From NCBI GenBank assembly GCA_000697665.1, contig KL197716.1, positions 312,631 to 370,408 on the forward strand: a DNA stretch of 57,778 bases, given 5' to 3'. A program made the position numbers and the translations under genes. Below are positions 17,512 to 51,966 of the stretch, piece by piece. Below the pieces are notes generated by a model. That model was not told the DNA's origin. It was given only the letters and a program-made list of their open reading frames with translations, and searched no databases. This DNA comes from Jaapia argillacea MUCL 33604. Its lineage: Eukaryota > Basidiomycota > Agaricomycetes > Jaapiales > Jaapiaceae. Within the stretch, counting starts at the first letter, position 1; every line of letters begins with the position of its first letter.

Positions 17512-19544
17512 GCGAGAACGTCGTGGAGGTGTGTTTTCTCGTTCATTTCTACCCTCGGGCTCGCCACAACTAGTACGATAGATGACCATATTGCTCGCCT
17601 ACACATAATACCCGTAGCTACTTCCTCACGCAGCTTTTCCTTACGAAAGGCGTGTACATCTGTATGTTTTCCTCGTTTCGATCCATGGACGGTGTAAGAA
17701 CAAATCACGAGCCAAATAATGGAGAGAGGCAGCCAAGCAAAGGGTGACCCGGGTTGAATCGCCCGCGCAGGGCATCGGTGCAATTACCGTTGTTGGATGT
17801 CTGAGTATTTGTGTTCCTCGGGAAGATTGGACAGAGTGGGAAAATGCAACATTACGCAGCGGATAATCTAGGTATGGTCAGTCAGTGATAAGAACGAAAC
17901 ACCTCAAGACGTAACACTGGCACGCACGAAGTCATATACGCTCGTAACTCCGCCAGGTCAGTGGCGGAACTCCAGTCTGGGTTGACCACTCCAGGCGGAA
18001 ACATCCTGGCTTCTACCCCACCAACTGACTCCCGGTTCATATGCCAGACCCGTTTATCCAATTCCTCCCAGAGAAGGAATAGTCGTAGACGTGGCAATGA
18101 CTTTGCCAGGTCCGCAACGAGAGTGACTAAGGATCATGATAACCTGGGCCTGTAATGGGACGTTCTGAGGACGAGTTTGAAGTACAGTAGGGAGGAGGCG
18201 TTTCGGAGGCATCGAAAGACTGCTCGCTAACGTTGGGCAAAACGGGTGAGATCAAGATGGAGGCGGAGGCAGAGGCAGAGGGTGAATGCACACACTCACA
18301 AGGCACTCTGCAAGCGACGCACGCTCATAGATCTGCACACTTCTGAGGGTGAAAATCAAAAACTGGGTTTGGCTGATGGAGTGACCAAAGTCAGGGAAGT
18401 TGGCCAGGTCGGCCATCGATGAGAGGGATACTGTGAAATCAAGGACTAGGGGTGTGGTCGCCGAAAGCATTCGTAAGAACGCAAGCATGTCCGGCTGAGA
18501 TTGGGTGGCATGGAGTGTTTCCTGCCGCTGTACAGACAGTGTTCTGATCGGACACGTCAATCCAAGATGGACAAACGGCGTCCAATCCAATAGGACGGTA
18601 TCCAAGGAGGTCCAGTACGGATTCGAGCCGGTACTGACAGCAGATAGTTGTGCTACCTGACAATTGTCAATGGATAGGGTGCGCGCGGTGGGGAAGAGTG
18701 CGAAAAGGATGGGGAGGGATAGTTTACAGCCCTTTAGCTGCAAATGTTGGACTTGAGGAAAGACATCGCATTCTCGAACATCGGGGGGTAGAAGGTTGGA
18801 GAACTCGAGGGTCACGGATTGTAAAGTCGACTGAAAGGGTCGTAGAGCGAGTAAGGTGGGATTTAACCGGTCAGAAACCGATAGGCGGATTCGACGGAGG
18901 GGGCAAGTCATGCGGGATATCGTTGTGAGGGTTGAGGGAGAGACGTGTATGCCAGCGTCAAAGCGTAACAGTCCTCGGCACCCGGTGAGGGCCTCGCCAA
19001 TACTTGGTTGGAGAGAAATGAATTCCTCGAGACGATCCGTCGAAATTTCTTCGAGGTTGTTAGCGCCCCGAATCAGCGACGCTACGTGCAGTAGCAAGCA
19101 AGCTAGCCTTGGCATTCGCGGGTCGATACAGACGATTCTGAGAGATCGTGTATGGACGACCCACGGTGCCGAGGATGGACTACTCATAAACCTTTCGAAA
19201 GACACCAAATTCTTGTAAGAGAGTGCTACAGAGGTCATAAAGAAAGGCATCCCGGCCTGGTAAAAGTAGTGATTGACCATCACAATGGAGGAGAAATCGC
19301 GATCGCGACCCCAGAGCATATCGCGACCATCGTATAATGTTCTCAGGATGTAGAACAAGATATCATAACCAAGGTCGAGGAGTTGCATGATATCCTGGTG
19401 CTCGTCGTGGCTGTTATCAGGCCCACAATTTGGATCAGTAGCATGCCAGGTCGATCGGCCTCCGCAACAACCTCCGAATTCCTACCGTCCACTCCCGCAA
19501 CCGGTACCGTGGTACACGGGACAAGTTTGAACTCCTGGTCAATA
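17196..19544. repeat. Segmental tandem duplication, unit 1
   Basis: Unit 1 runs from inside the seven-helix gene, through its 3' flank and F-box copy A, to a stretch resembling the ATP20 leader (CTCCGAATTCC ... GACAAGTTTGAACTCCTGG). Each block has a match in the same order in unit 2 (19557-21640). Sequence identity by eye is roughly 75-85 percent, with a ~270-bp stretch (17345-17620) missing from unit 2. Confidence 0.8.
17882..19388 (-). pseudogene. F-box/LRR-like protein, copy A, truncated by a premature stop
   Basis: Exon 1 (18300-19388, ATG at 19388) and exon 2 (from 18226) are joined across a phase-0 intron. Copy A would end at a TGA at 18134-18136, giving 393 residues. At this place copy B reads CAA (Gln) and continues; in copy A the same frame stays open for another ~84 codons to 17882 with clear homology (VTLVADLAKSLPRLRLF, ELDKRVWHM). 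The N-terminus MQLLDLGYDILFYILRTL is a short F-box-like helix and the rest has irregular leucine-rich repeats (LRRIRLSVS, VQHLQLKGC, CPIRTLSVQ). Such proteins often act as SCF ubiquitin-ligase adaptors; that is family knowledge. It could still be made as a shorter protein. Confidence 0.7.
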
Positions 19545-19690: not shown

Positions 19691-19925
19691 CATCCCACGC
19701 AGCTTTTACTTTTCAAAGGCGTGTACATCTGTATACTTTCTTCGTTTCGATACATATGGTGTAAAAACAAGATCACGAGTCAATGAACTAATAGCGAGAG
19801 AGGCAGCCAAGCAATGGCCCACGGGTGACCCAGGATAAATCGCCTGCCCAGGACACCAGTGCGGTTACCGTTGTCTGGAGGCCGAATATTCTGTTCCTCA
19901 GGGAGATTGGAGAGAGTGGAAAAAT

Positions 19926-21428
19926 TCAACAGTAGGCAGCGGACATCCTGAATGTGGTCAGTGAGTGACACAAACGGAACACCTCAAGACGTAACACCGG
20001 TACGCACAAAGTCATGTACGCCCGTAGCTCCTCCATGCCAGGAGCGGATTTGCAGTCCGGAATGACCACTCCTGATGGAAGCATCTTGGCTTCCACTCCG
20101 CCAACCGAGTCTCGGCTCATATGCCAGACCCGTTTATCCAAATCCTCCCGAAGATGAAGTAATCGTAGGTGTGGTAATGTCTTTGCCAGGTCCGCAACGA
20201 GAGTGACTAAGGATTGTGGTAACCACGGCTCATCATCGGATGTGCTGAGGACGAGTTTGAAGTAAACAAGGGAGGAGGCATTCAGGAGGGATCGAAAGAC
20301 TGCTCGCTAACATAGGGCATGACGGGTGAGCTCAAGATTGGGACACAGATGGAGGGTGGATGCACTCACGAGACACTCCGCAATCGACTCATCATCGTAG
20401 ATCTCCACTCCCGCAAGGGTGAAGATCAAAAACTGGGTTTGACTTATGTAATGACCAAAGTCGGGGAGATTGACTACGTCGTCCACGGATAAGAGGGACA
20501 CTTTGAAATCAAGGACTAAGGGTGTGGTCGCCGAAAGCATGCGTAAGAACGCAAGCATGTCCGGCTGAGATTCCTGCCGCTGTACCGACAGTGTCCTGAT
20601 CGGACACGACAATCCAAGATCGACAAACCCCGTTCCAGTTATCGTGACGTCATCCAAGGAGGTCCAGTATGGAGTCCAGCTTTTACTGACAGCAGAGTGT
20701 TTTGCGACCCGAAAACCATTCATATATAGGGTCCGAGCGTTGGGGAAGAGTGCGAAAATGATGGAGAGGAATGATGAGCAGCTCACTACCCGCAAATGTT
20801 GGACTTGAGGAAAGACGTCGGATTCTCGAACATCGGGGGGAAGGAAGTCACAGAATTTGAGGGACACGGATTGCAAAGTCGATTGAAAGGGACGGAGAGC
20901 ACGCAAGGTGGGTAATCGGCCAGAGGCCGATAGGGAAATTCGACGGAGAGGGCAAGGCATGCGGGATACTACTGTGACGGTTGAGCCACAGACGTGTTTA
21001 CCAGCGTGAAGGTTTAACAGTCCTCGGCACTCGATGAGGGCCTCACCAACGCGTGGCTGGAGAGAAATTAGATCCCCGAGACAATACGAGGAAAGCTCCT
21101 CCAGGTTGGTAGCGCCCCGAATCAGCGACGCTACGTTCAGTAGCAAGCAGGCTAGTTGTGGCCTTTCCTCTCGGGACGGCGCGTAAAAAATAGAGACAGT
21201 GAGCGATCGCGTATGGATGATCCACGGTGCCGAGGATGGACTGCTCATGAACTCCTTAAATGACATCAAACTCTTGGGAGAAGTGAGCGACACGGAGGTC
21301 ATCAAGAAAGGCATCACAGCCTGGTAAAAGGAGTGATTGAGTAGGACGATGGATGAGAAATCGCTGTGATCCAAGAAATTGGCCAAGATGTGATACACGA
21401 TATCGTAGCCAAGGTCGGAGAGCTGCAT
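19926..21428 (-). CDS. F-box/LRR-like protein, copy B
   Basis: Two exons (20370-21428 and 19926-20306) with a phase-0 intron give about 479 residues. The N-terminal MQLSDLGYDIVYHILANFLD is F-box-like, followed by an HSFYQAVMPFLM segment and a run of leucine-rich repeats up to the C-terminus (VADLAKTLPHLRLLHLRE, ELRAYMTLCVPVLRLEVF). The likely role is substrate recognition in an SCF-type ubiquitin ligase, inferred from family architecture only. An in-frame ATG 18 codons upstream (21482) is less likely, because the related copies begin at the MQL/MSL position. It is the intact member of the tandem pair and is divergent from ATP20, with 229 bp between start codons. Confidence 0.8.
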
Positions 21429-21657
21429 GATATCCAAAGATATCCTGGTGCTAGTCGTCGCTGTGATCAGGGGAGACAGCAAGTAATTCTGAGCTTTTCA
21501 AATTTCAAGTTGATTCCGTCACCGGGGATGGTCCACGAACTACCTCCGAATTCCCACAGTTCTCCGATTTTGCAAGCCGGCTACTCCCGCGACCGTTGTG
21601 CAGGACAAGTTTGAACTCCCGGTCAATAACTCCCAATTCCCTGACCCATCGTCGAGC

Positions 21658-28139: not shown

Positions 28140-30430
28140 ATCGTTAGATGGTGGCTCCGAGCCGTTGGATGGCCCAAGAATCTTGATGGGACCAACTCAC
28201 GGAGTCCCAGAACCTACGACCAGGTAGGTATACATCGAGGTGGGCTGACATTATACTTAGATGGGGTCGTGCCAGGCGAACATGTTGGGAAGCATTGACT
28301 ACGACACCCCAGGATCCGTGGTGTGCCACGATAAGCGGAAACGGTGGGGTCAGGGGATCAGAATTGAAGAGGCGCGATATTGCCAGTTCAGGTATAGCAT
28401 GGGGGATTTTCTGATAAGAGAAAGTGTTTCTGTGGCTCAGAGCATCCATCAGAAACCATTAGCAGGTCGATAAGGCTTTTGGCGGAGGTACTTGGGCCAC
28501 AAAGACGCTAAGTTAATATCTGCAACCACATCACACGGATGAAGCCACGCGTCACGGGTGGCACCTGATCAAGTCGCGCTGATAAGAATTGGAAAATCGG
28601 CCCCGCTTCCTCGAACCAACTTGAACAAAGGTCAACAATGAACGTCCCTTTATCAAAAACCCTCTTGTTTCCTTTCTCTTTCAACCGCATCTGGCCCCCT
28701 GGCTTGTTCTTCACGTTACCTCTCATCTCAATAAGCTTTTCACGATGCCTCGCGGTGCGTCAGAACTACCCTTCTCAGTCCCCTGCTTCGATAAGATTGA
28801 TTTTCGTAAGCAGCAGTCAAGAAGAAACAAAGACTGTCCACCATCAAGAAAAGAGTCTCATTCAATCTCGCACTTCAAGATGATTTGATTCCCAAACCAA
28901 CTCAGTGTGCTTTTGACTACTCCGCTCCACGGCTTATGATAGCCCTCGGATTCGAAAACGTCCAGAATGCCCGTCGCAAATACAGGAAATTGAAGGCTTG
29001 TTGTATCTCGATGCCCGATTTGGCTGTTCGGCTGATAGATCAAATTTTCTACTTCTAAAGAAAGAGGTTATGGCCCTGGCTGCCCGGTATCTGACGATGG
29101 GGAAGCCGTGGACATTACAAGACCCAGCCAAATTCAAGATCTTCAAGGAAGCGGTATTCTGCCTCCTCATTATGACTATAGGAATGGAACTCACATTGCA
29201 TATAGGCCCTACAGCGTTACCCTGTCTTTCAAGGATTCGAAAATGATTGGTCAATTGAATACCTGGTCAAACTTGAACTACGAAATGATGTTCAACGTAA
29301 GTTTTTATTTATTTATTTTCTTTTCGCATAAAACGATTTATGTTGCGTAGGCCAGAAGAAAGCTCAATCGGACAAGGAAATTGAGGAGGATGATGAGGAT
29401 GAGGGCGGGAGAAATGATGAATCCGAAGGGTATGTCAAGTCTCCACCGCCCCGTAAACCATTTGTTCCAAGAAATGAGGTGCGCATTCCCACATAACCCA
29501 TTTGACGGTAATGTCTGATATTGTTTGTGGTGACAAACAAGCGCCCACGCCGTGCAGTAGCCACCTTGAGCACCACCTCGTCGTCGCCACCAGCCCCCGC
29601 ACCTTCCACCCAGGCTTCTTCATCATCCTTCCGCTCTCGCCCACCCACCTCGATCAACGGTATCAGGACCGTGAACAAATCAGGTTCCATTTCATTTTCG
29701 CAGTCACCTTCGCAGTCCTCCTTCCCTTCGAATCCACCAGGGCAAATCACAACTGCCGTAGAAGAATTTCTCTACTCCATCAGAGCTGAATCCACCTACC
29801 CATTCTTTGAAGATGCCGGTATCAAGACTGAGGAGGACCTCGAGATATTCCTCAGTTGGGAAATCGAGAGACAGGAGGGATTGTTTGATCGGGTTGTAGA
29901 TGGGAAGAAGATGTCGTGGCTCCAGGTGAACCAGATCCGGAATGGCTTGGGTCATGGTTTGAAGAAGTAGGTCTACTCTGGGCTCCTACACGAATGGATG
30001 ATGTGATGTATATTTGTATTTATGAGTTCTCCCTGATTGTGTATTTCCGCAAGATTCACCCTGATTCAACTGTTTGGAATGGCATGGTGTGATGAGATGA
30101 TATATGAAGTTGGACGTGATTTAGCATATTTTGCTGATACATGAATAACTATGATGCTCGTGTTGGCGTTCGTCGACACACTCATGCTTGCCCTATGCCA
30201 AGAAGATGTACCTCACATCGGAGGAAACAATCTATCACTTAACTACTAACATATCACACGAATGAGGATCTGATATCACCCTCGCGAACCACCAAGAAAT
30301 CACCGAAAATAATCGTCTCAGCGAAACATGGGCACGCATCCTGACGACGATGCAAAGTCAACCGAAAACAGATTAAAACTTATAAGTATTATTACCTTCC
30401 TAAGGGCAGACGCCACAATGCACGGAAGAA
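28140..30430. repeat. Second tandem duplication, unit 1
   Basis: Unit 1 contains an upstream block (ACATCGAGGTGGGCTGACA; TAAGAATTGGAAAATCGGCC), the acidic gene copy 1 and a downstream block (GAGGATCTGATATCACCCTC; GGGCAGACGCCACAA). All recur in order about 2.25 kb later. Divergence is substantial, so the event is not recent. Confidence 0.75.
28745..29970 (+). pseudogene. Acidic SAM-like protein, copy 1, probably broken
   Basis: Copy 1 parallels the gene at 31036-32313 exon by exon: an N-terminal KKRVSFNLALQDDLIPKPT segment, MALAARYLTMGKPWTLQDP, ALQRYPVFQGFENDWSIEYL, an acidic block (EIEEDDEDEGGRNDESEG), and a C-terminal SAM-like region (VEEFLYSIRAESTYPFFEDA, ending at 29970). The donor that copy 2 uses after KKFR (GTGAGT) is GGCTTG here, and reading on meets a TAA within about 20 codons. 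It may use a GC donor or be dead. The ATG at 28745 needs a short intron to reach the conserved frame, another difference from copy 2. Confidence 0.6.
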
Positions 30431-32610
30431 GGAGGTATCAAACGAATTCCCCGAGCATTTGGACGGTGAAGTGAGTCAGAGATGCGAAGGTCCGGGTGGA
30501 CTACATCGAGGTGTGTTGACAGTTTAGATGGCAATGGACACTTATCGCAGGCGAAAATAACGAGACGCATAAGGGATGTCAAGAGCCATCGTTTGCCTCG
30601 GTACACAACAGCGCGCCGGAGGGTGGGACAGGCAGGCTTGGGGCGATCGTTTCGCTTCCAGCCTTCACTACAGTCGGCGAAAGCGACGTAGGAGGATCTA
30701 AGCCCAAGGGCAGACCGGCAGAATAGTGGAGTCTCCGTGGTTGAAAATAACCTGAGTAGTGAAAACCTGTTTGCAATTGGCAGAGGGTAGTTGCAGTCCT
30801 CGGTGAAAGCGGAGTTGCATGTCTGTCACATCGTCATGTGTGCGAGTCACAGACGTGCTGATCGGAATTGGAAAATCGGCCACAGTGCCAACACTGAAAG
30901 GGACACTCGAACAAGCAGGAACAATGAACGCTCTTTCTCGAGAAACCTATCGTTTCCTTGCTCTTTCGACCGTCTCTAACCCTCTGGTTTTTTCTTACCT
31001 GTCGTCTCAGCAACTGAAGCTCATCACAAATTACCATGCCTCGCGGTACGTCAGAACTCCCTCAGCCCCGCAATTCGGTAAGATTGACGTTTGTAAGTAG
31101 AAGTCAGACAAAGCAAAGATCCAAGATCATACCTCGGAAACGAGTCTCATTCGGTCTTGCACCTCAAGCCGATCTGATTCCCAAACCAACCATAACTGCT
31201 CACAGGTATCCCGCCAAACGGCTCAGAGCAGCTCTCGGGTTCCACTCGGATGTCAGTAGATACAAGAAATTTCGGGTGAGTTATATCTCGACGTGGGATC
31301 TGACGTCTTGATTCATGGATGGACATTTCTGTTTCTGAAGAGGGAGGTTATGGGCCTGGCTGCCCAACACCTGACGATGGGGGAAACATGGAGATCTCAA
31401 GACCCTGACAAATGCAAGATCTTTAAAGAAGAGGTATTCTTTCTCCTCATTATGTCTATCAGAATGAGACTCACGTAGCATGTAGGCTCTCGACCGTTTC
31501 CACGTCTTTCGAGAATTCCGAGACAATTGGCCAATCGAATATCTGGCTACCGCCGGGCTAAAAGCGTATATCAAAACACGTCAGCGTAAGCTTAGACCTA
31601 CGGCTTTCTTTCATTGTTCGTGGACAATATGTGATTTGTGTTGCATAGGTCGGGAGGGAGCTCAAAGGGACAGGGAGGACGTCAATGGGAGCGAGGATGA
31701 CTACAAAGATGATGAATACGATGACAACGACGAAGACGACGAAGACGATGAAGGTGACGAACAAGATAATATCATGTCTCCGCCTCCGTCCAAACAACCA
31801 GCTCCAAGAAACGAGGTGAGTATCCAAGTTCAGTTCCTTGGATGATAATATCTGACCAGAATACATTTCGTGGCGACGAAAAAGCGCCCTCGCCGTGCAG
31901 TAGCTACTTCGGGCTTCAACTCGTCATCCTCGTCAGTCCCAGAACCGTCACCGCGGGCTTCTACGTCATGCCCCTTCTCTCGCCCGTCCCCATCGAACAA
32001 CACAGTCAAGAGCATGAACAATTCAGGTTCCACCTCATGTTCCCAGTCAGCTTCCCAATTCTCCTATCCTCCGAACTCCCCACGGCACTTCACGACCCCA
32101 GTCGAAGAATTTCTCCATTCCATGAAACTCAAATCCGCCTACCCGTTCTTCGAAGATGCCGGTATCAAGGAGGAGGAAGATCTGGAGGTCTTCCTCAGTT
32201 GGGAAGTCGAGAGACAGCGGGGTCTGTTTGATCGGGTCGTAGACGGCAAGGCGATGTCGTGGCTCCAGGTTAGCCAGCTCCAGAATGCTTTGGGCCACGG
32301 TTTGAGGAAGTAAATCGATTCTTGGTTCCCACAAGAAAGAATGTGCTGTATGTGTGTATTTCTGAAATGTACTTTATGATCATGTTTCTCCGTACTAAGG
32401 CGCCTCGAATCGGAGGGAACGACATAGGAGTACCCACCACGAATGAGGACCTGGCATCAACGCCGCGGACCAAAAAGCAATGGCTGACGATGGCATAATC
32501 GTCTGGATGAACGCCCGCGTCCTGAAGGAGATACACCAAGCCGATCGAGAACAGGCTCGGGTAGAAGGCGAGGGGATAACATACCCGAGGACAGACGCTA
32601 CGACGCAAGG
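30431..32610. repeat. Second tandem duplication, unit 2
   Basis: Unit 2 holds the intact gene copy and the same flanking blocks as unit 1 (30500: ACATCGAGGTGTGTTGACAG; 30860: GGAATTGGAAAATCGGCC; 32440: GAGGACCTGGCATCAACGCC). It ends just before the poly-C tract. Confidence 0.75.
31036..32313 (+). CDS. Acidic protein with a C-terminal SAM-like domain, copy 2
   Basis: Five exons (31036-31275, 31341-31433, 31486-31585, 31649-31815, 31885-32313) keep phase and give 342 residues. The N-terminus carries basic RKRVSFGLAPQADLIPKPT; the middle has ALDRFHVFREFRDNWPIEYL and a strongly acidic stretch (DDEYDDNDEDDEDDEGDE). After a basic KKRPRRAVAT segment and a Ser/Pro linker the C-terminus reads VEEFLHSMKLKSAYPFFEDA and ends in a second helix pair, like a sterile alpha motif. 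This suggests a nuclear protein that binds partners through SAM; function unknown. The last intron ends in AAG rather than CAG/TAG; the same AAG is kept in copy 1. Part of exon 1 may be a retained intron. Confidence 0.7.
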
Positions 32611-32714: not shown

Positions 32715-34556
32715 GGTGATGTTCCCTCTTCGCTCTCCAGGAATGGAGGATCACGTCAGTTGTTCTCGTCACAGAAGTTAGAGTTTCCATCGTTGCTTCG
32801 TAGTCCCCGGGGACGAAAACCCTCCCGAGAAGCAAACCAAAATCGGTGTCGGGGCAAAAATATATGAGAATAGTGGAACGATCTCCCCTCTGTCGGTTGG
32901 GTTTGCAGATGGGTCGGTGATGAGGATACGAAAAAGGGATAAATTGACCAGAGTCTATTCATCGGCTTTGGTGTGAATATGTGCGTCAACATGACTCGAT
33001 ATGACATCTCGACGGTGATTGAGATGGCACCGAGAAGTGTTCAGGTACATAGACTTGAGCCGAGTGAGGAGCCCCGGCTCAGGGGGGAAATCACCCTAAT
33101 CCTTCATTGAGGGGGCGAGATGATAGCTTTAGGTGGTTTGGTGTTATTTAGTAGCAAGCATCATAAATCGAGGGATGGCCATGATGGTGTCAAGTGGAGT
33201 GCGGGGTTTAAAACCATCAACCTGCCCTAAGTCCAGGACCGACACCCCACGACGTCGCTGCGCAGCGACTTTTCCTTGTCCATTCCGCGAGGGATGACCC
33301 AACGACTGCCATCGCTGTGTCAGTCGTTGTACTCCGGATCGCTGGTCGCGCGCGACTTACGTCTTCACGTACGTCTCCCGATGACGGAACAGCTTATCCA
33401 GCAATGGCGTTGTCTTGCGCTGTCGGTGAGTCTACTTACCCCTCTCCAACTTCCAAGGGTCGCGATGGCTCATGCATGGCTGGATGCCTAGACATTCGAG
33501 TGACAGGACTCCAGTTATGGCATCAGCTGTAACTATTGACAGACACAAGTTGTGCGCCATTAGAACCCAGGGCTTTGTCCTGGTGTTCGTTTAGGCTGCT
33601 GTCTTCCTGTCAAGACTGAGCAGTCATCTCTACAAATCAATTACCCCAGGTCATTTCTGTCTCTACACACTTTGGATTGCCAACCCACCTCTGCGAGTGC
33701 TGAGACATGCAGGTGAGCAAGTTGGTATTCGTGTTGGGAGTGAGTGAACTGATCTTGTTCGTTTTCACGTAGGAGGTCGTCTTTCTTGTTCGTTCAATTG
33801 TACTTTTGCTGGTTATACTGGGCTTGTGCAATACGAGATTGATTCCTCTTCTGCGCGATATGAGCGATTGAGTAGTGTTGTGCAACGGAACGGTAAACGA
33901 AGCTGAACTTCGTTGGCAACAGGGAGAGTCGACGTCATCGTCGTGGACAGACTCGTGTGGCAACGGTGTTTTGTGCCATTGAAGTGGTGACGCCGAACCC
34001 TAATGGCTTCCAATGCTGAGACCTGACAAGTGGAGACCTCAGGCTGGGTGGAGGTGAGACGATCGAAGTAGAGCCCCATCACTATCCCGGCGCAACTTCC
34101 CCCAATCATGACGAGTCGTTGAGATATATTCCAATCGTGTCGCCCAACATATCAACACGAGGTGCGCCGCCCCTCGATCATATCATCCATCTCACAACAT
34201 ATCAGTTGCTCAGTTGCTCATCCACTTTTCGTCTACTAAAAACACCCTTGGAAATCAGGCTGGAGGATCCACATTGAGATGTTCATGTGCAAGAACATTG
34301 TCGCGTTGGTAATGATACACACCCTCCTAGGCGGGATTTCCACGCCTGGCCCACTCCGCATCCCTCGACTGCTAATCAAATGATAAATGATGTCGGCGGA
34401 ATCGTGCACACCGCGATCCCTCCAAGCCAAACATCCGTGGTATACTATGCCTTGAATCAAAACCTCGTCATCAATATCTCGTGAGACCGTCGGTGGAAGG
34501 AAACGACTCACTAATATATTGGTGGATCAAGCCATCTAGGCGACGACGCAAAAGAG
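32715..34556. other. No supported gene; short repeat
   Basis: Small frames on both strands have no recognised motif. A segment at about 32949-33055 (GACCAGAGTCTATTCATCGG ... TTCAGGTACATAG) resembles 35950-36045 (GACCAGAGTCCGTCCATCAG ... TTGAGGTACACG), so another duplicated block exists here. A minus-strand frame at 34236-34511 is not supported by any domain. Confidence 0.4.
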
Positions 34557-35150
34557 TTACCTCCGCCTCCTCCGTCTTCGCGGTCGGGGGGGGTGGAGTC
34601 TTCGATAATGGTAGTGGTTAAGAAGGAATCCAATGCTGTGGTGGTTGGTGAGGGGCTTCTGTTCGATGCTTGGTACGCCTTTATATAGGTTGTCGGTTGG
34701 GGTGTGTGTCAACTGCATTGGCCGTACGACTCTTGCTTCGTCCTCTGAAAGAAAACAAAAGAATAGGAGCGGGGATGATGGAGAGTGAGACGTACCATTC
34801 CTTTGCCCGGAACCCCCGAGCCCAGATGCAGGACAACAGCTATGCGAAGAAACAATTATTGGAACGAGACGTTGGCCGAACCAAACGCTGAGGTTTGCGT
34901 TAATCACACCCCCGGCGACGTATGCAAAATCAGGGGTTAATCGCGATATGATTCTACGAAGACTCAAAAGGAGTGAGGCTAAAAAATCTATTTGATTAAG
35001 ACCCAACGTCGTCTTGAGGTACTCACTCAAGCTCCGAGGAAAAGGTATCAAAGGAAACCATTCGCTCAGGTCGAAGGGCACAAGCGTTGAGTTTCTACCT
35101 GGTGACTGATAACTGGATTCCGGAAACGACGAATCCCACAAAGAGTCCAC
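34557..35150 (-). CDS. Uncertain hypothetical reading frame
   Basis: This 197-codon frame begins MDSLWDSSFPES. Residues ~40-90 look protein-like (LSEYLKTTLGLNQIDFLASL, FAYVAGGVINANLSVWFGQR), while the C-terminal half is Ser/Pro/His-rich, ending in an Arg run. A donor near the middle (after VWFGQRLV) may mean that only the first half is coding. No family was recognised. Confidence 0.25.
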   Translation of the reverse strand: MDSLWDSSFPESSYQSPGRNSTLVPFDLSEWFPLIPFPRSLSEYLKTTLGLNQIDFLASLLLSLRRIISRLTPDFAYVAGGVINANLSVWFGQRLVPIIVSSHSCCPASGLGGSGQRNGTSHSPSSPLLFFCFLSEDEARVVRPMQLTHTPTDNLYKGVPSIEQKPLTNHHSIGFLLNHYHYRRLHPPRPRRRRRRR

Positions 35151-41286: not shown

Positions 41287-42330
41287 TCTTCCGTGAAACT
41301 TCACTGTGTCAGTGGTGGTGTGGCAAGGAAATAGTTGTGGAACGCTGCAAGTATCGTCGCGGGTCAATGGAGCTGGTTTCCAGTTTCTAAACCTGCAGAA
41401 TGAAATTCCGTATCCATCCTGAGGGCACGTCGATCGAATGTCGGAACGGTAAGGTGAAGCGCCTGCCGGGGACTAGGAGGTGGAACGAGTTCCAGGTCCA
41501 GTCAATCGAATACGATGTAGAAGCGAGTATGTCCATCCACACACCCACGCACCCGCCGGAAGGGACTCGCTCCCTGTTGTGCTCGGCGCCTGGTACCCCC
41601 GTCAGGCCCTCAAGAGCCCTCAAGAGCCCTCAGGATTGCCTCCCACACTACCGTCCGCTTTGCGCCTGGATGTCCCAGCTTCCAGGCGTCTCCGATGAGC
41701 TCATCTGCGCCGATCCTCTTATTGTTCGAGGAATCAAGCTCAAACAAAGTTTTGATAGCCTGCCCATCCTTTTTGTTTCGGCGCCGCCCTGATTTCCCGG
41801 TGAGAACTGATCTTCCGACGATGATGTTTCCTGTCCGACAGAATATGTCAGGACGAGGTAGGTAGGCCCCGGGTGGGTGGTGAAGTCGCGAATGTCAGGT
41901 CCTGCCGATGAACCGCGTGATTGTCTTGGTGAAGCCGTGACAACGTATCGATAGACTTTGCCGCGGCTTTTTGTTCTCATTCTCTTCTTCCGGTCTTACA
42001 TTTTCCTCCCTGCCCCGGACTGCGACATGGGCTCATTTATCGCAGTATCATTTCCAACATCGCTTGGGTCTGTCTCAGAACGGCTCAGAACCTGTTCCTT
42101 GCGATGCCCATCTTATTGTGTGCAAAACGTGACATTTGTATGTTCGTTCTACGACACCTTCCCAATCAGGCAGGAGCTCCGAAGCAGACAAAGACGACAT
42201 ACCTGTGGTCTTACTCGGCTATAATACTTATTGTCTTCTCCCTCCGGAACGACAAAACACCTGCTGAACCCGTTCGGCAACATGAGCTTTGCTAAGGCAC
42301 CGGAATATGAGGGGAGGTAGGCACCGCATG
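41287..42330. other. No supported gene
   Basis: A 130-codon plus-strand frame at 41400-41792 (MKFRIHPEGTSIECRNGKVK) is not recognised and shows a local GAGCCCTCAA triplicate repeat near 41609-41634. The remainder is probably the upstream region of the pheromone gene. Confidence 0.35.
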
Positions 42331-42338
42331 TATAAAAG
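42331..42338 (+). promoter_or_regulatory. TATA box of the pheromone precursor gene
   Basis: TATAAAAG stands 87 nt upstream of the ATG at 42425, followed by a C/T/A-rich leader (TCACCAACCAATCCACATCC). A strong TATA box and a short leader fit a small, highly expressed gene. Confidence 0.6.
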
Positions 42339-42424
42339 GGAGACCGACGAGCAGCTAACCTCACCAACCAATCCACATCCATTTCATCGTCTCTTCAGTC
42401 TTCCTTATCATCCTCATTCTTACA

Positions 42425-42598
42425 ATGGATACCTTCTTCACCACCACCATCATCGAGGACGTCACCCCCATCGACCGTGAGGACGGTGGAGGTGGAGGCA
42501 ACTCTTACTGCGTCGTCTGCAACACCACCCCGATCAACACACCCACCAACGAGGAGGACGGTGGAGGGGGAGGAAACTCCTACTGCATCGTGGCCTAG
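42425..42598 (+). CDS. Lipopeptide mating-pheromone precursor with two core repeats and a CaaX end
   Basis: This is a 57-residue intron-free frame. It ends in the CaaX box CIVA and stop, the signal for farnesylation of Cys54, removal of the last three residues and carboxyl methylation, as in basidiomycete pheromone precursors. The core EDGGGGGNSYC occurs twice: first followed by VVC in the interior, then by IVA at the end. Acidic pairs (RED, EED) just before each Gly run fit the charged N-terminal processing site of these precursors. The mature peptide would be near GGGGGNSYC-farnesyl. Such peptides bind STE3-type receptors. No receptor gene is visible in the window, so the gene may be part of a B/PR mating locus beyond it or an unlinked pheromone-like gene. 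Confidence 0.85.
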   Translation: MDTFFTTTIIEDVTPIDREDGGGGGNSYCVVCNTTPINTPTNEEDGGGGGNSYCIVA

Positions 42599-43372
42599 AT
42601 GGCGCGATCTTTAACTTATTCGACTTCTACATTCGTGGGTTACCTCGCTTGACTTTCCCTGGTCTTCGTTTTGTTGATAAGCCACCCGACGACTGTAGGA
42701 CATTCATTTGTATTTGGACTCACCAACGCATATTTGTGGGGGACGGAGCGGGTCGAAATGCGGCGTGCACAATTCCGCCAGCATCGTTTGTTATTCATTT
42801 CCTGTATTTGGAGGGCTTCGGAGGATGGGGTCGGGAGATGGATAGGCGTGTAAATTCCGCCTAGTGGGAGGGTGTATCATTATTCGTTCTTCAGCAATCA
42901 TTGTATTTCGCCGCATGCGACAAGATATCTTCACAACATCTCGTTTTCGAATGTAAGAGGCGTGAGGGTTGACCATCCAAAGCTATTACATTTTGATTGA
43001 CCGTGTGTAGATGACGTGAACATGACAATGGATTGAATTCGCGCCTCCGCCAGATCGATAGACCAACGGCACAGGGAACCCACATCCGTCGTCTGGTGAA
43101 GTTCTTCCGGTGATGGTCCGCCGTGGTGAGAGCTTGAGCGTACCGGTCAATTTTTTAAGCCGCCGAACCGGCTTGCGATGGAAGAGTCAACGGTCTTCGC
43201 TACGTGCAAGACTAGGACATCTTCATAGAAGATAAATCTGAAGCGAAGGCGTGTGAGTGATAATCGGAATTAAAACTAGGGTAGCAACTGGTGAACGTAC
43301 CGCTGAACCTAGCGCGAGGCACCGATCTAAGGTCCAAGAAAATGCGAGACGGAAATCATCTGCCGAGGGGCA
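42599..43372. other. No supported gene
   Basis: This stretch is the 3' flank of the pheromone gene and the region after HUS1, which is convergent with it. No motif or repeat was recognised, and no second CaaX peptide frame was seen. Confidence 0.4.
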
Positions 43373-45229: not shown

Positions 45230-46660
45230 ATGTCTCTCCTCGATCTCAGCTATGACGTCCTCCTCCACATCCTCCTTCGCTTGGATGATAGGTCGCTGTC
45301 TGTCATTGTTCTCGTCTGTCACCAGCTCTACCATCTCGGGATGCCTCGTTTAATGCGACACGTCTCCATTACCTCTATACGAAGGCTGATCCAATTTTGC
45401 ACCTTCATGGATAGTGAACTATCGTCCCAATGGCTTCCCCACATCCGATCCTTGACCGCATCATTTATTCCCTATCTAGCGGAACACCAGCAGCACTCCC
45501 GCCCTTGGGCTGCCCGTGTGGCGATCCTCGTCCGCACCTCGCTGAAACTCGAAACGTTTGCGTCGGACTGCATCGAGGAGCTATTGTCGCTGGAACCAAC
45601 CATCGGCGACGCCCTCACGGAATGCCGTTGGTTGGCGAGGATCTACCTCCTCGGAGCTGGCAACAGGGCAATCGAAACATTATCTCGCATGACCAGTCCC
45701 ATTTGCAAAGTTCACCTCGCAGCCATTCAATCTCTGAGTGGAGCCGACATATTCTCTGCCCTCACTCCTTTCCACTCGACTCTTGAATACATCCACATCG
45801 CTGATTTTACGCTCCTCTCGAGTGATTCGCACCCGAGAGCCCGTTTTCCGATGGTTCGGAATATCTCCATGTTTTTCTGTACCTCGTCAGTCGACACCCT
45901 CCTCAAGCTGTTTCCTGAAGCTCGCTCCGTCTGGCTATACTCCTGTCGGATGTCCTCCAGCGCTAGTAATTGGGAAATACCTTGTTGGGGCTCGTTGGAA
46001 AGCCTCGAGCTACACGGCACCGATTTGTCAGATGTGATCTTGACATGTCCCATCGACAATGTCATCCTCTCCCCATTGGACGGGTTAGGTTTACTTACCG
46101 GACAAAGCGACACGATACCTTTCCTAAAACTCATCAAGGCTGCATCTCCGTCAAACCTCGAGATCCGGGTCACCACAGCCTTCATAGGCGAGCTCCTCGC
46201 TTATGACCTCGGATGCCTCATCCCACAAAGAGAATGTTTGGTCCTTCGAATCATTGATATGGACAGTCAAAATGCCGATTACATCATGGCTTGCCTTGTA
46301 ATTCTGTTTCGTTATCTTCCTTGTCCTGTCCCTAACCCCCTTGATCAGGAAACTCTTATCACCAGTTTCAAGTCTGCCTCCACTCTCTTTTACTTCCAGT
46401 TCAGTTTATCTGGAATTCCCGCTAGTCCTCGCCTCTTTCCTCACAAGAAACTCGAGGCACGAATCCAGACCCTCGCAAACATACTACCCACTCTCCTCGC
46501 AGTCTTCCTCAACGACGATGAATCGGAAGAGTTTTGGCATATTCGTCGAGATGCCGAGGGTCAGGCACAGATGAGACATCTACCCGGGAAGATGTGCTTA
46601 GCGAATTATAGTTTTTGGCATCAAGCATCGACCAGTTTTCGTGAATATCTGTCTTCGTGA
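45230..46660 (+). CDS. F-box/LRR-like protein, copy C
   Basis: The start MSLLDLSYDVLLHILLRLDD at 45230 aligns with MQLLDLGYDILFYIL of copies A and B; an in-frame ATG 6 codons upstream (45212) is possible. A 51-nt intron (46298-46348, GTAATT...CCCTAAC...GATCAG) lies where the other copies have theirs; it is a multiple of three, so the frame reads through it, but position and branch-like CTAAC favour splicing, giving 459 residues. After the F-box-like helix come leucine-rich segments (IRSLTASF, LESLELHGTDLS, CPIDNVILSPLDGLG) and a conserved C-terminal block LANILPTLLAVFLNDDESEE with FWHIRRDAEG. It is dispersed from the tandem A/B pair by about 24 kb and in the opposite strand. Confidence 0.8.
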   Translation: MSLLDLSYDVLLHILLRLDDRSLSVIVLVCHQLYHLGMPRLMRHVSITSIRRLIQFCTFMDSELSSQWLPHIRSLTASFIPYLAEHQQHSRPWAARVAILVRTSLKLETFASDCIEELLSLEPTIGDALTECRWLARIYLLGAGNRAIETLSRMTSPICKVHLAAIQSLSGADIFSALTPFHSTLEYIHIADFTLLSSDSHPRARFPMVRNISMFFCTSSVDTLLKLFPEARSVWLYSCRMSSSASNWEIPCWGSLESLELHGTDLSDVILTCPIDNVILSPLDGLGLLTGQSDTIPFLKLIKAASPSNLEIRVTTAFIGELLAYDLGCLIPQRECLVLRIIDMDSQNADYIMACLVILFRYLPCPVPNPLDQETLITSFKSASTLFYFQFSLSGIPASPRLFPHKKLEARIQTLANILPTLLAVFLNDDESEEFWHIRRDAEGQAQMRHLPGKMCLANYSFWHQASTSFREYLSS

Positions 46661-49180: not shown

Positions 49181-50595
49181 ATGAATTTTCTTCACATCGG
49201 CGATGATATCCTGCTCCACATTATCGGTACTTCTCTTGATCACGAGACTTCAAGTCGACACCCATTGTCCTTGTCTGCCGAAGGCTTTATCGTCTCGAAA
49301 TACCATTCCTTGTGGAAAATGTCTACGTTTCCTCCATAAAATCAATCATCCAGTTTGTCAAATTCATGGACGGCAAATCCTCGTCCCGCTGGCTCCCTTA
49401 CATCCGACCCCTGGTGACATTCTTTCCCCCACATTCACTCGAGAACCAACGATACTTTCCTTCTTGGGCTTCTCGTGTTGCAACTATCATCCGCCTCTCT
49501 TTACAGCTCGAAGTTTTCCAATCGGATTCCATTGAGGATCTGTTAGAGGCTGAACCAATGATTGACGAAGCACTCATCGAGTGCGATACTCGAAATGTTA
49601 GCGTTCATGCGCAGTCCTATTCGCGAGTTTAACATCACTGCGAAAGATCCGTTGAAAGGGATGAACGCCTTCTCTGCACTCAGTTCATTTCACTCCGCAG
49701 TCACCTTTGTACGAATCGCTTGGCTCTCTTTACTTCCGAACGAGTCCCAGGTCCAACTTGAAATCATATTCCCGAAGGTTCCTGACCTCGTATTATTGTA
49801 TTCCACCTCGCCCACACCTACCCTACTGCGGATATTCCCTAACGCTCGCTCCGTATTTTTGGCTTCCTGCCAGATGTCCTCCGACTCCAACATTTCAATT
49901 ACACCATCCTGGGGCAAGTTGGATCATCTCATTTTCCGGGATGGATCTGTCGGAGATGGCGTTGTCGTGCCCTGGTACAGGCGAATTGTTTGTCTCTTGT
50001 TTGGATGGAGAGGCCGGGACGTCTGGACTTTCAGATTCAAAATCTTTTCTCAGGTTGGTCGAGGATACATACCCACGACATCTCGACGTCTTGGCGACTC
50101 AAGCCTCAACCATCGAGCTATCCGAGTGCGAGTTGGGCCGGTTTATTCCTCGAACGGAAATGTTCATGCTTCATGCCGTCGATATGAAGTCCAACCAAAA
50201 CGCCGATCGTGTCATGGAGTCCGTCGTATGTCCCCTCCCTACAGACCTCAGTGTATATGTCATCTGACTGTTCCCTAGAGGGAATGATTGTAGACAGTCT
50301 GAAATCAGCCTCCTGCCTGTTTTATCTCGACATTAGGTTGAGGGGAAGTCCCACAGGCCCTGCTTCATTTCCAAACGAAACGCTTCAGGAACGAATCCAG
50401 GACCTAGCAAATGCATTACCATCCCTTCTCGCCGTTTGGCTTTGCGATGACGATGGGAAAGAGTTTTGGAACGTTCGTCGAGACGCAGAGGATAGCGGGA
50501 AGGCGGAGTTGAGAAAGATGGCAGGTCAAACGTGTTTGGATAATTGGAGCTTCCAATATTATCCCGCAAGTTTCCAAGATCATCTGGGAGCGTAA
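49181..50595 (+). pseudogene. F-box/LRR-like protein, copy D, with several frameshifts
   Basis: Homology to copy C is continuous but moves between frames: MNFLHIGDDILLHIIGTSLD (49181), then one frame over for VENVYVSSIKSIIQFVKFMD (about 49312-49580), then another after a ~70-bp deletion for LAFMRSPIREFNITAKDPLK, then a third from about 49935 for LSEMALSCPGTGELFVSCLD. After the family intron (about 50222-50279) the end reads DSLKSASCLFYLDIRLRG and LANALPSLLAVWLCDDDGKE to 50595. At least three frame changes within what is one exon in the other copies make this a pseudogene, unless the assembly has errors. Confidence 0.75.
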
Positions 50596-51966
50596 GTGCC
50601 TTCTATCTCAACTCCAGATGGGTCATAACACTGAGATTTAGACTGTCGTGGTGTCCCTAGACGAATACCGAACCTCACAACATTGGTTGAAGCATGGTCT
50701 TTGGACTGATAATAATGCAGAAATGTTTGTTGTCATATTGTATCCTCGTTGACGAAATATACTGGCGACCCAACTATCTAAATGTGAGAATGTGAGTGTT
50801 CGAGGTGGGGGATGTTGGTGTTGGTGGCCGGTAGCTGACATTTGGGCCGGTAGGACTTCCAGGCTATGAACAGCCTCGCTCACATAATATATCCAATATC
50901 GAGGCACCCTGAGGGGCTCGTCGCGGTGAGCGAGGGACAAAAGCAACCATTGGGATAATTACCCAGACTCGATCTCATACACACGAAGGGGTGACAGTCG
51001 CTCAGTTTGTTTACCATTCCTCAAATCATCGTGGGTACCAGGTATTCCGATCCGACAAGTACGCTTCCTCTCTAGTCGCTCCCTTGGTGGGTTTGGCGGG
51101 CGCTCGACGGAAGGCTGCCTTTTGTTAACGTGGGTCAAGCTGGCGATGATGGTCCCCGTGTATCTAACAGAGGTGACGATCCGGTAACTTCTGAAATAGC
51201 CTCAGCGAGAGTTTTGTTAGCCTCGTCTCGTTTTTGTCTTGGTGGTTTGACGTACTGTTACCCCCTGATCTTCAGCATCGACGAACTCATTGCGGAGTCT
51301 CATGTCGCCACCATCTTGTCCTAATTGGTTACTGCTCTTGGGTGGGTGTTTTGCGTTTTCGTACCAGAAGACCCTTTGGAACTGAGCATCACATCACACT
51401 GAGGCACTGGCAGGGATGATGGCTCTAGGAACTAGGGGCCTTGTGGGCGACTTCCATGAGAACTCACATCCTCACTGATCCCCCTGCTTTAAATGGACGC
51501 ACCATTCTAGGTCCCAAGGTCATACATTTGCTCTGGGCCTCCAGAAACAACGTTGAAATGGATAATCTCGCTGAATCACCAAAGAATTCTGAAAGGAGCT
51601 TGGCGAAGGAATTAACAAGCATCATCGCGAGGTGATCGACATCCTTTCCCCCCATTCTTAAAACCAGAGGGTGAAGAGGGAGATTTTGAAGGGTACATAT
51701 CGACGACGTCGAGCAAAGTTCCAGCGGAAGCAAATATTTGCATCCCAGACCATCTTCGAAAGGATACGATATCCTGCATGTGTCCTTCCCAAATATAACC
51801 AAGGTGACGTGGGAGGTGAACTTCAACCCAGAAACAATACTGAGGGGCTTTCACATCACATTGGGTAACAGAGACAACGTCATTTACTGCGTAACTTGCT
51901 GGACTACCTGCAGAATCACTTCGAATATACAATTGAAACTTAAGGACGCGTCTGAACATAACAGGC
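50596..51966. other. No supported gene; possible decayed coding segment
   Basis: Between 51540 and 51960 plus-strand frames contain protein-like stretches (WASRNNVEMDNLAESPKNSE; YDILHVSFPNITKVTWEVNF; ILRGFHITLGNRDNVIYCVT) split by stops and frame changes. No family was recognised. The rest is featureless. Confidence 0.3.

Follow-up and report, generated by a model that had tools for sequence, protein, structure and literature searches.

A pheromone-like precursor gene with two identical cores and its relatives in Jaapia argillacea

Pheromone-like peptides outside the mating-type locus have been described in several Agaricomycetes. In A. bisporus, four precursors of such peptides are reported, which are G-rich, scattered and unlinked to the receptor at what was formerly the mating locus (PMC8305134). 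At least three of the four are expressed and have an intron in the 3′UTR, and for three the same report notes a likeness to non-mating-type peptides, GGGSGNGAYC of C. cinerea and GGGSGNNAYC of L. bicolor (PMC8305134). Four resembling precursors are described for P. cinnabarinus (PMC4101180). Pheromones that are not closely associated with receptors have been argued to be unlikely to be mating-type-specific (PMC3140503), and two non-mating STE3-like receptors of S. commune are referred to as orphans (PMC8161036).

Basidiomycete lipopeptide precursors with several cores are already in print, in these descriptions as mating-type genes of Pucciniomycotina (red yeasts, Microbotryum and cereal rusts). 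The rhodotorucine A precursors of red yeasts (RHA genes) contain tandem lipopeptide cores with CaaX-like spacers and are encoded by several genes; the RHA2 genes of two related species are reported to differ only synonymously, and the MAT A1 pheromone genes to lie in inverted repeats (PMC3236058, PMC3068285). The enzymes that mature rhodotorucine were unknown in 2010 (PMC3068285). MFA1 of cereal rusts is described with three tandem pheromone repeats, and the same is reported for Microbotryum (PMC10977897). The hpp1 h-type precursors of Trichoderma and its relatives contain repeats of a CaaX-like motif and a single free CaaX end, and their maturation is called uncertain (PMC3068285). Precursors of Tremella, which belongs to the Agaricomycotina and not to the Agaricomycetes, are compared with the maturation of rhodotorucine A in an account that does not state several cores (PMC3068285). 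In the open-licence literature, we found clear examples of multi-core precursors only outside the Agaricomycetes.

Here we describe a gene with two cores from J. argillacea. The window that we analyzed, a stretch of 57,778 nucleotides, corresponds to C8:312631-370408 of a genome of 43.7 Mb in 95 contigs. On its forward strand, positions 42425..42598 contain a pheromone-like precursor gene with an intron-free coding frame, whose translation is MDTFFTTTIIEDVTPIDREDGGGGGNSYCVVCNTTPINTPTNEEDGGGGGNSYCIVA (57 amino acids) followed by a stop codon. Translation confirmed the preliminary description of this locus in its main points, namely the 57-residue frame, the C-terminal CaaX box CIVA, the double occurrence of EDGGGGGNSYC and the sequence VVCNTTPI after the inner copy. 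The inner core GGGGGNSYC (42485..42511, +) is preceded by ED and followed by VVC-N, and the outer core GGGGGNSYC (42560..42586, +) is followed by IVA and the stop codon and thus has a free CaaX end. The TATA box mentioned in the same description is the sequence TATAAAAGG at 42331..42339 (+), which starts at −94 from the ATG. Further upstream, the hexamer TATTGT occurs at 42229..42234 (+), with a second copy at 42114-42119. The earlier statement that the gene lacks introns holds for the coding frame only, as the layout downstream of it predicts a 64-nt intron in the 3′UTR (GTGGGT...TGTAG, 42635..42698, +).

To assess how often such sequences occur, we searched the whole genome. A degenerate GGGNSYC pattern had 20 matches in the 43.7 Mb, compared with 0 for a reversed control pattern. 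The inner and outer core of the window gene account for the matches at C8:355121-355141 (window 42491-42511) and C8:355196-355216 (window 42566-42586); of all 20 sites, two-core genes contain 14, single-core genes 4 and broken copies 2. A protein search of the genome with the window protein gave 15 matches, in which other whole genes reached E values down to 7.9e-32, and a single-core query gave 24 matches. Two further protein queries revealed no additional family locus among the best-scored candidates. Since the reversed control pattern had no match and other whole genes match the protein, a chance origin is ruled out. The earlier view of the gene as a pheromone-type precursor with a CaaX end and two identical cores is supported.

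Intact two-core genes number at least seven and are found on contigs C8, C1 and C11. Besides the window gene, they are C8:415478(−), C8:416582(+), C8:428370(−), C8:429451(+), C1:2898848(−) and C11:279149(−). In addition, the genome contains at least seven single-core or diverged relatives and at least three broken copies; all family counts are lower bounds, as the protein search scored the best candidates only. An intact GGGGGNSYC together with a CaaX end is present in the single-core genes C8:438404, C41:97618, C72:69098 and C61:129676. Diverged single-core forms are C7:351356 (GRGGRNSYC) and C41:178346 and C41:179624, which have other cores. Among the broken copies, C8:380555 is truncated by a stop within the inner CVVC box, and C1:1483090 has six glycines and a frame that leaves the CaaX end. 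A decayed relative in the window itself (34547..34633, −) has lost its start codon, and its frame is broken before the end of the core. In total, GGGGGNSYC is encoded by 11 intact genes on six contigs, seven of them two-core and four single-core. The window gene has an MDxF-type start; of 16 family genes, 15 begin with MD and one with MY. A CaaX box ends 14 of them and is missing only from the broken C1:1483090 and from C8:380555, which is truncated. Glu is found at position −2 of 19 of the 20 exact cores, again with the exception of C1:1483090 with its six glycines, while residue −1 varies (D, C, S, G or W).

The two-core genes on C8 are part of a cluster that has grown by duplication. The divergent pair at C8 415-417 kb recurs in inverted orientation at 428-430 kb with 84% identity over 1.95 kb, and the surroundings of C8:380555 and C8:383282 contain duplicated sequence related to window 45.2-50.8 kb, which includes an F-box ORF. 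Several further observations concern this sequence. The stretch at window 45230-46660, with the F-box ORF next to the precursor gene, has a related stretch at 50295-50491 (67% over 198 bases), and sequence of this region recurs beside two family loci on C8, L018 and L077. The non-coding stretch at window 50922-51379 is 65-68% identical to the intergenic region shared by the divergent pairs at C8:415-417 and 428-430 kb; no pheromone-like gene was recognised alongside it in the window, and parts of it recur at C8:383282 and C8:395659. Around C8:383282 (L077), sequence like window 49359-50766 is followed by part of this intergenic element and then by a short piece that resembles the 3′ flank of two-core genes. 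Judged by this arrangement, L077 looks like the site of a lost two-core gene. Two pairs of long direct repeats in the window, 17627-19421 with 19696-21471 (77%) and 28572-30025 with 30851-32365 (68%), are probably tandem gene duplications. When 20 window ORFs were compared with Pfam, four were matched (F-box, GH79 C-terminal, APH and DUF6914) and 16 were not. Outside C8, the single-core genes C41:97618 and C72:69098 (loci L022 and L023) are 82% identical over 1.2 kb including their flanks and may be either paralogues or diverged haplotypes. C41 carries two further genes with altered cores at 178-180 kb.

The preliminary description had read the gene as a pheromone precursor and had proposed to search the flanking contig for STE3 genes and to compare the locus between mating types. 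We searched the genome with the STE3 profile (PF02076) and obtained 62 matches, which we grouped into about 17 receptor loci, all of them on C50, C47, C20, C75 and C23. The large number of STE3 genes, with MDxF...CaaX genes next to them, fits a mushroom-type basidiomycete of the Agaricomycetes. None of the 62 matches is on C8, nor on any other contig of the family (C1, C7, C11, C41, C61 and C72). The gene is therefore not an ordinary mating-locus pheromone gene; the mating-type reading finds no support, and linkage of the window gene to the mating type is rejected on the basis of this search. A true pheromone gene of the B locus that has moved out of the locus would be of the same gene type, and the STE3 repertoire of about 17 loci, as grouped here, is large. 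We nevertheless regard such a move as very improbable, as the absence of STE3 from the family contigs argues against it and the same core is encoded by all 11 intact genes, which could hardly tell mates apart. Moreover, three pheromone-type genes that adjoin STE3 on C50 and C47 have different cores, e.g. GNGTQWWC, and upstream TATTGT is absent from these three genes. A search of the genome with the pheromone profile PF08015 placed two genes over the cut-off, both on C50, and two below it, one of which is a family gene (C8:438407). The window gene itself scored 12 bits (E 0.48), short of the cut-off of 22 bits.

As far as they are described, the non-mating-type precursors of A. bisporus, C. cinerea, L. 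bicolor and P. cinnabarinus resemble the window family in the MDxF-type start, the CaaX end, the presence of several similar genes and the lack of linkage to a receptor. By eye, and compared with the published consensus sequences GGGSGNGAYC and GGGSGNNAYC, the core GGGGGNSYC shares the richness in G and the end N-x-(x)-Y-C (PMC8305134). The 3′UTR intron is a further likeness to A. bisporus as described (PMC8305134), in our case as a predicted layout. On the basis of these accounts, the window gene fits the Agaricomycete non-mating-type class in the testable features, with the charged dipeptide before the core only partly kept. What sets the window family apart from the class, again by description, is the presence of two cores and of a shared 3′ element. 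The core string GGGGGNSYC itself was not found in the open-licence literature, and with shorter core strings PMC8305134 was the only fungal pheromone paper matched there. Overall, the window ORF looks like a real gene with a selected variant of a known pheromone-like gene class, rather than a chance frame or a mating-type gene.

The upstream motif and the 3′UTR layout are common to most of the family. In 13 of 16 family genes, TATTGT is found 125-212 bases upstream of the ATG, compared with 2.3% of random window positions, using an interval that was set after inspection of the family. Likewise, the intron layout is predicted in 13 of 16 genes, a count that includes the truncated C8:380555, searched with a shifted interval, compared with 5.4% of random window positions. 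The genes without a predicted intron are C11:279149, C1:1483090 and C41:178346. Because the genes are related and the rules were written after viewing the family, both features are descriptions more than tests.

Next, we analyzed the constraint on the two cores. At the protein level, the seven two-core genes have GGGGGNSYC in all 14 of their cores. The DNA of these cores requires a minimum of 9 base changes among the inner and 13 among the outer ones, all of them synonymous, even though non-synonymous changes would make up 78 of the 108 weighted single changes in the core. We then compared three pairs drawn from the six CVVC-type genes, chosen so that the pairs are connected by non-overlapping paths on a FastTree tree (supports 0.735-0.982). 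The synonymous and replacement changes were 4 and 0 in the inner core, 5 and 0 in the outer core, and 17 and 19 in the rest of the gene. In these three pairs, both cores together differ significantly from the rest of the gene (Fisher p = 0.006), and the inner core alone does not (p = 0.11). Within each gene, between 1 and 5 of the 27 bases distinguish the inner from the outer core, and in two genes it is only one base. The cores are therefore not fresh copies, and the duplication is not recent. Partial gene conversion between the two cores could also cause their likeness.

These data bear on the option, raised in the preliminary description, that duplication of a unit left the inner copy behind as a relic, which would then have no function. 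A tandem duplication is indeed visible (TPI...CVV is repeated), and the canonical Ala is missing from the inner box of six genes. However, the inner core has kept its protein sequence in all seven intact genes with synonymous changes only, and the two-core form is common to genes on C8, C1 and C11. A core released from constraint has a different look: in the truncated C8:380555 the second core, which lies behind the stop and is untranslated, reads DGGGGNSSC with two residues replaced. Since all 14 intact cores are unchanged while the second core of the truncated copy is decaying, we give the relic option little credence.

The next question is whether the inner core could be matured. As its other option, the preliminary description had suggested that the inner copy is processed by a cut behind a CVVC-like box, which may be the case. 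The inner CaaX-like box is CVVC in six two-core genes and the canonical CVVA in the C11 gene, and the residue after it is Asn in all seven. Their free ends are CVVA, CVIA or CIVA. Tandem cores each with a CaaX-like box are also the arrangement described for rhodotorucine A, from which the window family differs by description in not being of the mating type and in lying outside the Pucciniomycotina. MFA1 of cereal rusts, likewise of another subphylum, is described at the STE3 receptor of the mating locus, unlike the STE3-unlinked window gene. The ascomycete hpp1 differs in its short (LI)GC(TS)VM motif and in the Kex2 sites reported for one species (PMC3068285). According to the open literature, the two-core architecture is new in Agaricomycetes.

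The spacer of the window gene, NTTPINTPTNEED, contains neither Lys nor Arg, and there is hence no Kex2-like site in it. In rhodotorucine-type precursors a basic residue follows the inner box, which is absent here. Cysteine has been counted among the X residues of pheromone CaaX boxes (PMC10607315), and therefore CVVC could serve as such a box if freed. The two cores would most likely both be released, giving identical farnesylated peptides. If only the outer core were matured, the inner one would be a conserved part of the pro-region, used in recognition, transport or docking of the prenyl transferase and then discarded. Such a role would agree with the free CaaX end on the outer core alone, with CVVC in six of seven inner boxes and with the lack of a known processing site after them. 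It is nonetheless unlikely in view of C8:438404, C41:97618, C72:69098 and C61:129676, four relatives that share the core and the CaaX end and lack an inner copy; an inner core is thus not a general requirement. Furthermore, the inner copy keeps the whole peptide, the Glu at −2 and the CVV that follows, like the outer copy.

A single cut before the inner core would instead yield a single long lipopeptide, bivalent through its two core motifs and carrying one farnesyl group. Within each two-core gene the same dipeptide precedes both cores, and the cores are spaced 25 residues apart in six genes and 26 in the seventh, a regularity that would suit such a product. We consider it improbable, given that the outer core retains the Glu-X found in the single-core relatives and that mature pheromones are described as having about 9-11 (PMC3140503) or 9-15 residues (PMC4136793).

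Downstream of the coding frame, the two-core genes share a sequence element, GCGTG-N2/3-AATTCCGC. It has 13 exact matches in the genome, compared with 0 for the reversed control. All 13 are downstream of, and on the same strand as, two-core genes or the truncated C8:380555; each of the seven intact two-core genes has at least one of them. When close variants are included, seven of these eight genes have two elements, and the C11 gene has one. This element, which the accounts of known precursors cited here do not mention, is apparently new. A covariance model gave 13 matches on 25 sources at E up to 10. A copy of the second element was detected downstream of the decayed relative in the window (34322..34355, −; 23.8 bits, E 7.1e-5), and a weak match (E 0.63) was obtained at L006 beside an STE3 gene. 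The model had no match in seven single-core loci (L012, L022, L023, L025, L026, L062 and L069). A comparison with known RNA families gave three matches, all under the families' gathering scores.

In the window, the first element, GGCG-TGCACAATTC-CGCC, is located at 42762..42779 (+), and none of its four drawn pairs forms in the predicted fold of a 335-nt stretch. The second, TAGGCG-TGTAAATTC-CGCCTA at 42843..42863 (+), is a predicted stem-loop with five of six pairs formed in the same fold. As a whole, the 335-nt stretch folds no better than shuffles (z +1.43). In eight second-type elements a seven-pair stem has 92.9% of its cells paired, a value reached by 4 of 500 shuffles and compared with 39-50% in shifted controls; these are 8 of 15 elements, a small and related set on which the structure itself had been drawn. 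Their covariation score of 0.255 was reached by 3 of 500 shuffles, and three pairs changed on both sides by 15 of 500. The corresponding values were 39 of 500 for cells changed on both sides and 33 of 500 for further pair types. The elements left out of this count pair less well, six first-type elements having 4-5 pairs adjacent to the loop and the C11 element 3. Such modelling gives a mixed picture of the element as a putative RNA stem-loop, and it could also be a DNA dyad.

Taken together, we somewhat favor the reading that the window gene encodes a non-mating-type precursor of a pheromone-like lipopeptide, in a family where single-core and two-core genes encode one signal and both cores are used in the two-core kind. 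The family would have spread by local and distant duplication while encoding this signal in both kinds of precursor. The predicted signal is GGGGGNSYC with a farnesylated and carboxymethylated terminal cysteine. For the outer core, maturation would follow the usual CaaX pathway together with cleavage at the conserved Glu-X that precedes the glycines. Cleavage behind the CaaX-like box of the inner core (CVVC in six genes and CVVA in one, each followed by Asn) would release that core, so that one two-core transcript could give rise to two identical peptides. The peptide may be received by an STE3-like receptor outside mating-type discrimination. The observed part of this explanation comprises the gene, its family, the constraint on the cores, the lack of STE3 on the same contigs, and the common promoter motif, 3′UTR intron layout and 3′ element. 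We infer that the gene is transcribed, that each processing step takes place, that the inner core is prenylated and that an STE3-like receptor receives the peptide. Counting against the explanation are the inner box CVVC in six of seven genes, which is unlike the free ends, the PF08015 score below the cut-off, and the C11 gene without a predicted 3′UTR intron. More tentatively, in an Agaricomycete lineage a self-type pheromone-like peptide may have become a two-peptide polyprotein, in which an internal cut at CVV(A/C)-Asn would yield a second prenylated peptide. A stem-loop family of its own in the 3′UTR (loop UGUNAAUUC) would then mark two-core transcripts off from their single-core relatives and place them under joint control; we hold this possible and somewhat doubtful.

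By the open literature, the two-core form would be the first multi-core lipopeptide precursor found for Agaricomycetes, and it raises the question of how a CaaX box inside a precursor is processed. The peptide GGGGGNSYC, present in 11 intact genes, can be synthesised and is a concrete candidate ligand for non-mating STE3-like receptors of mushrooms.
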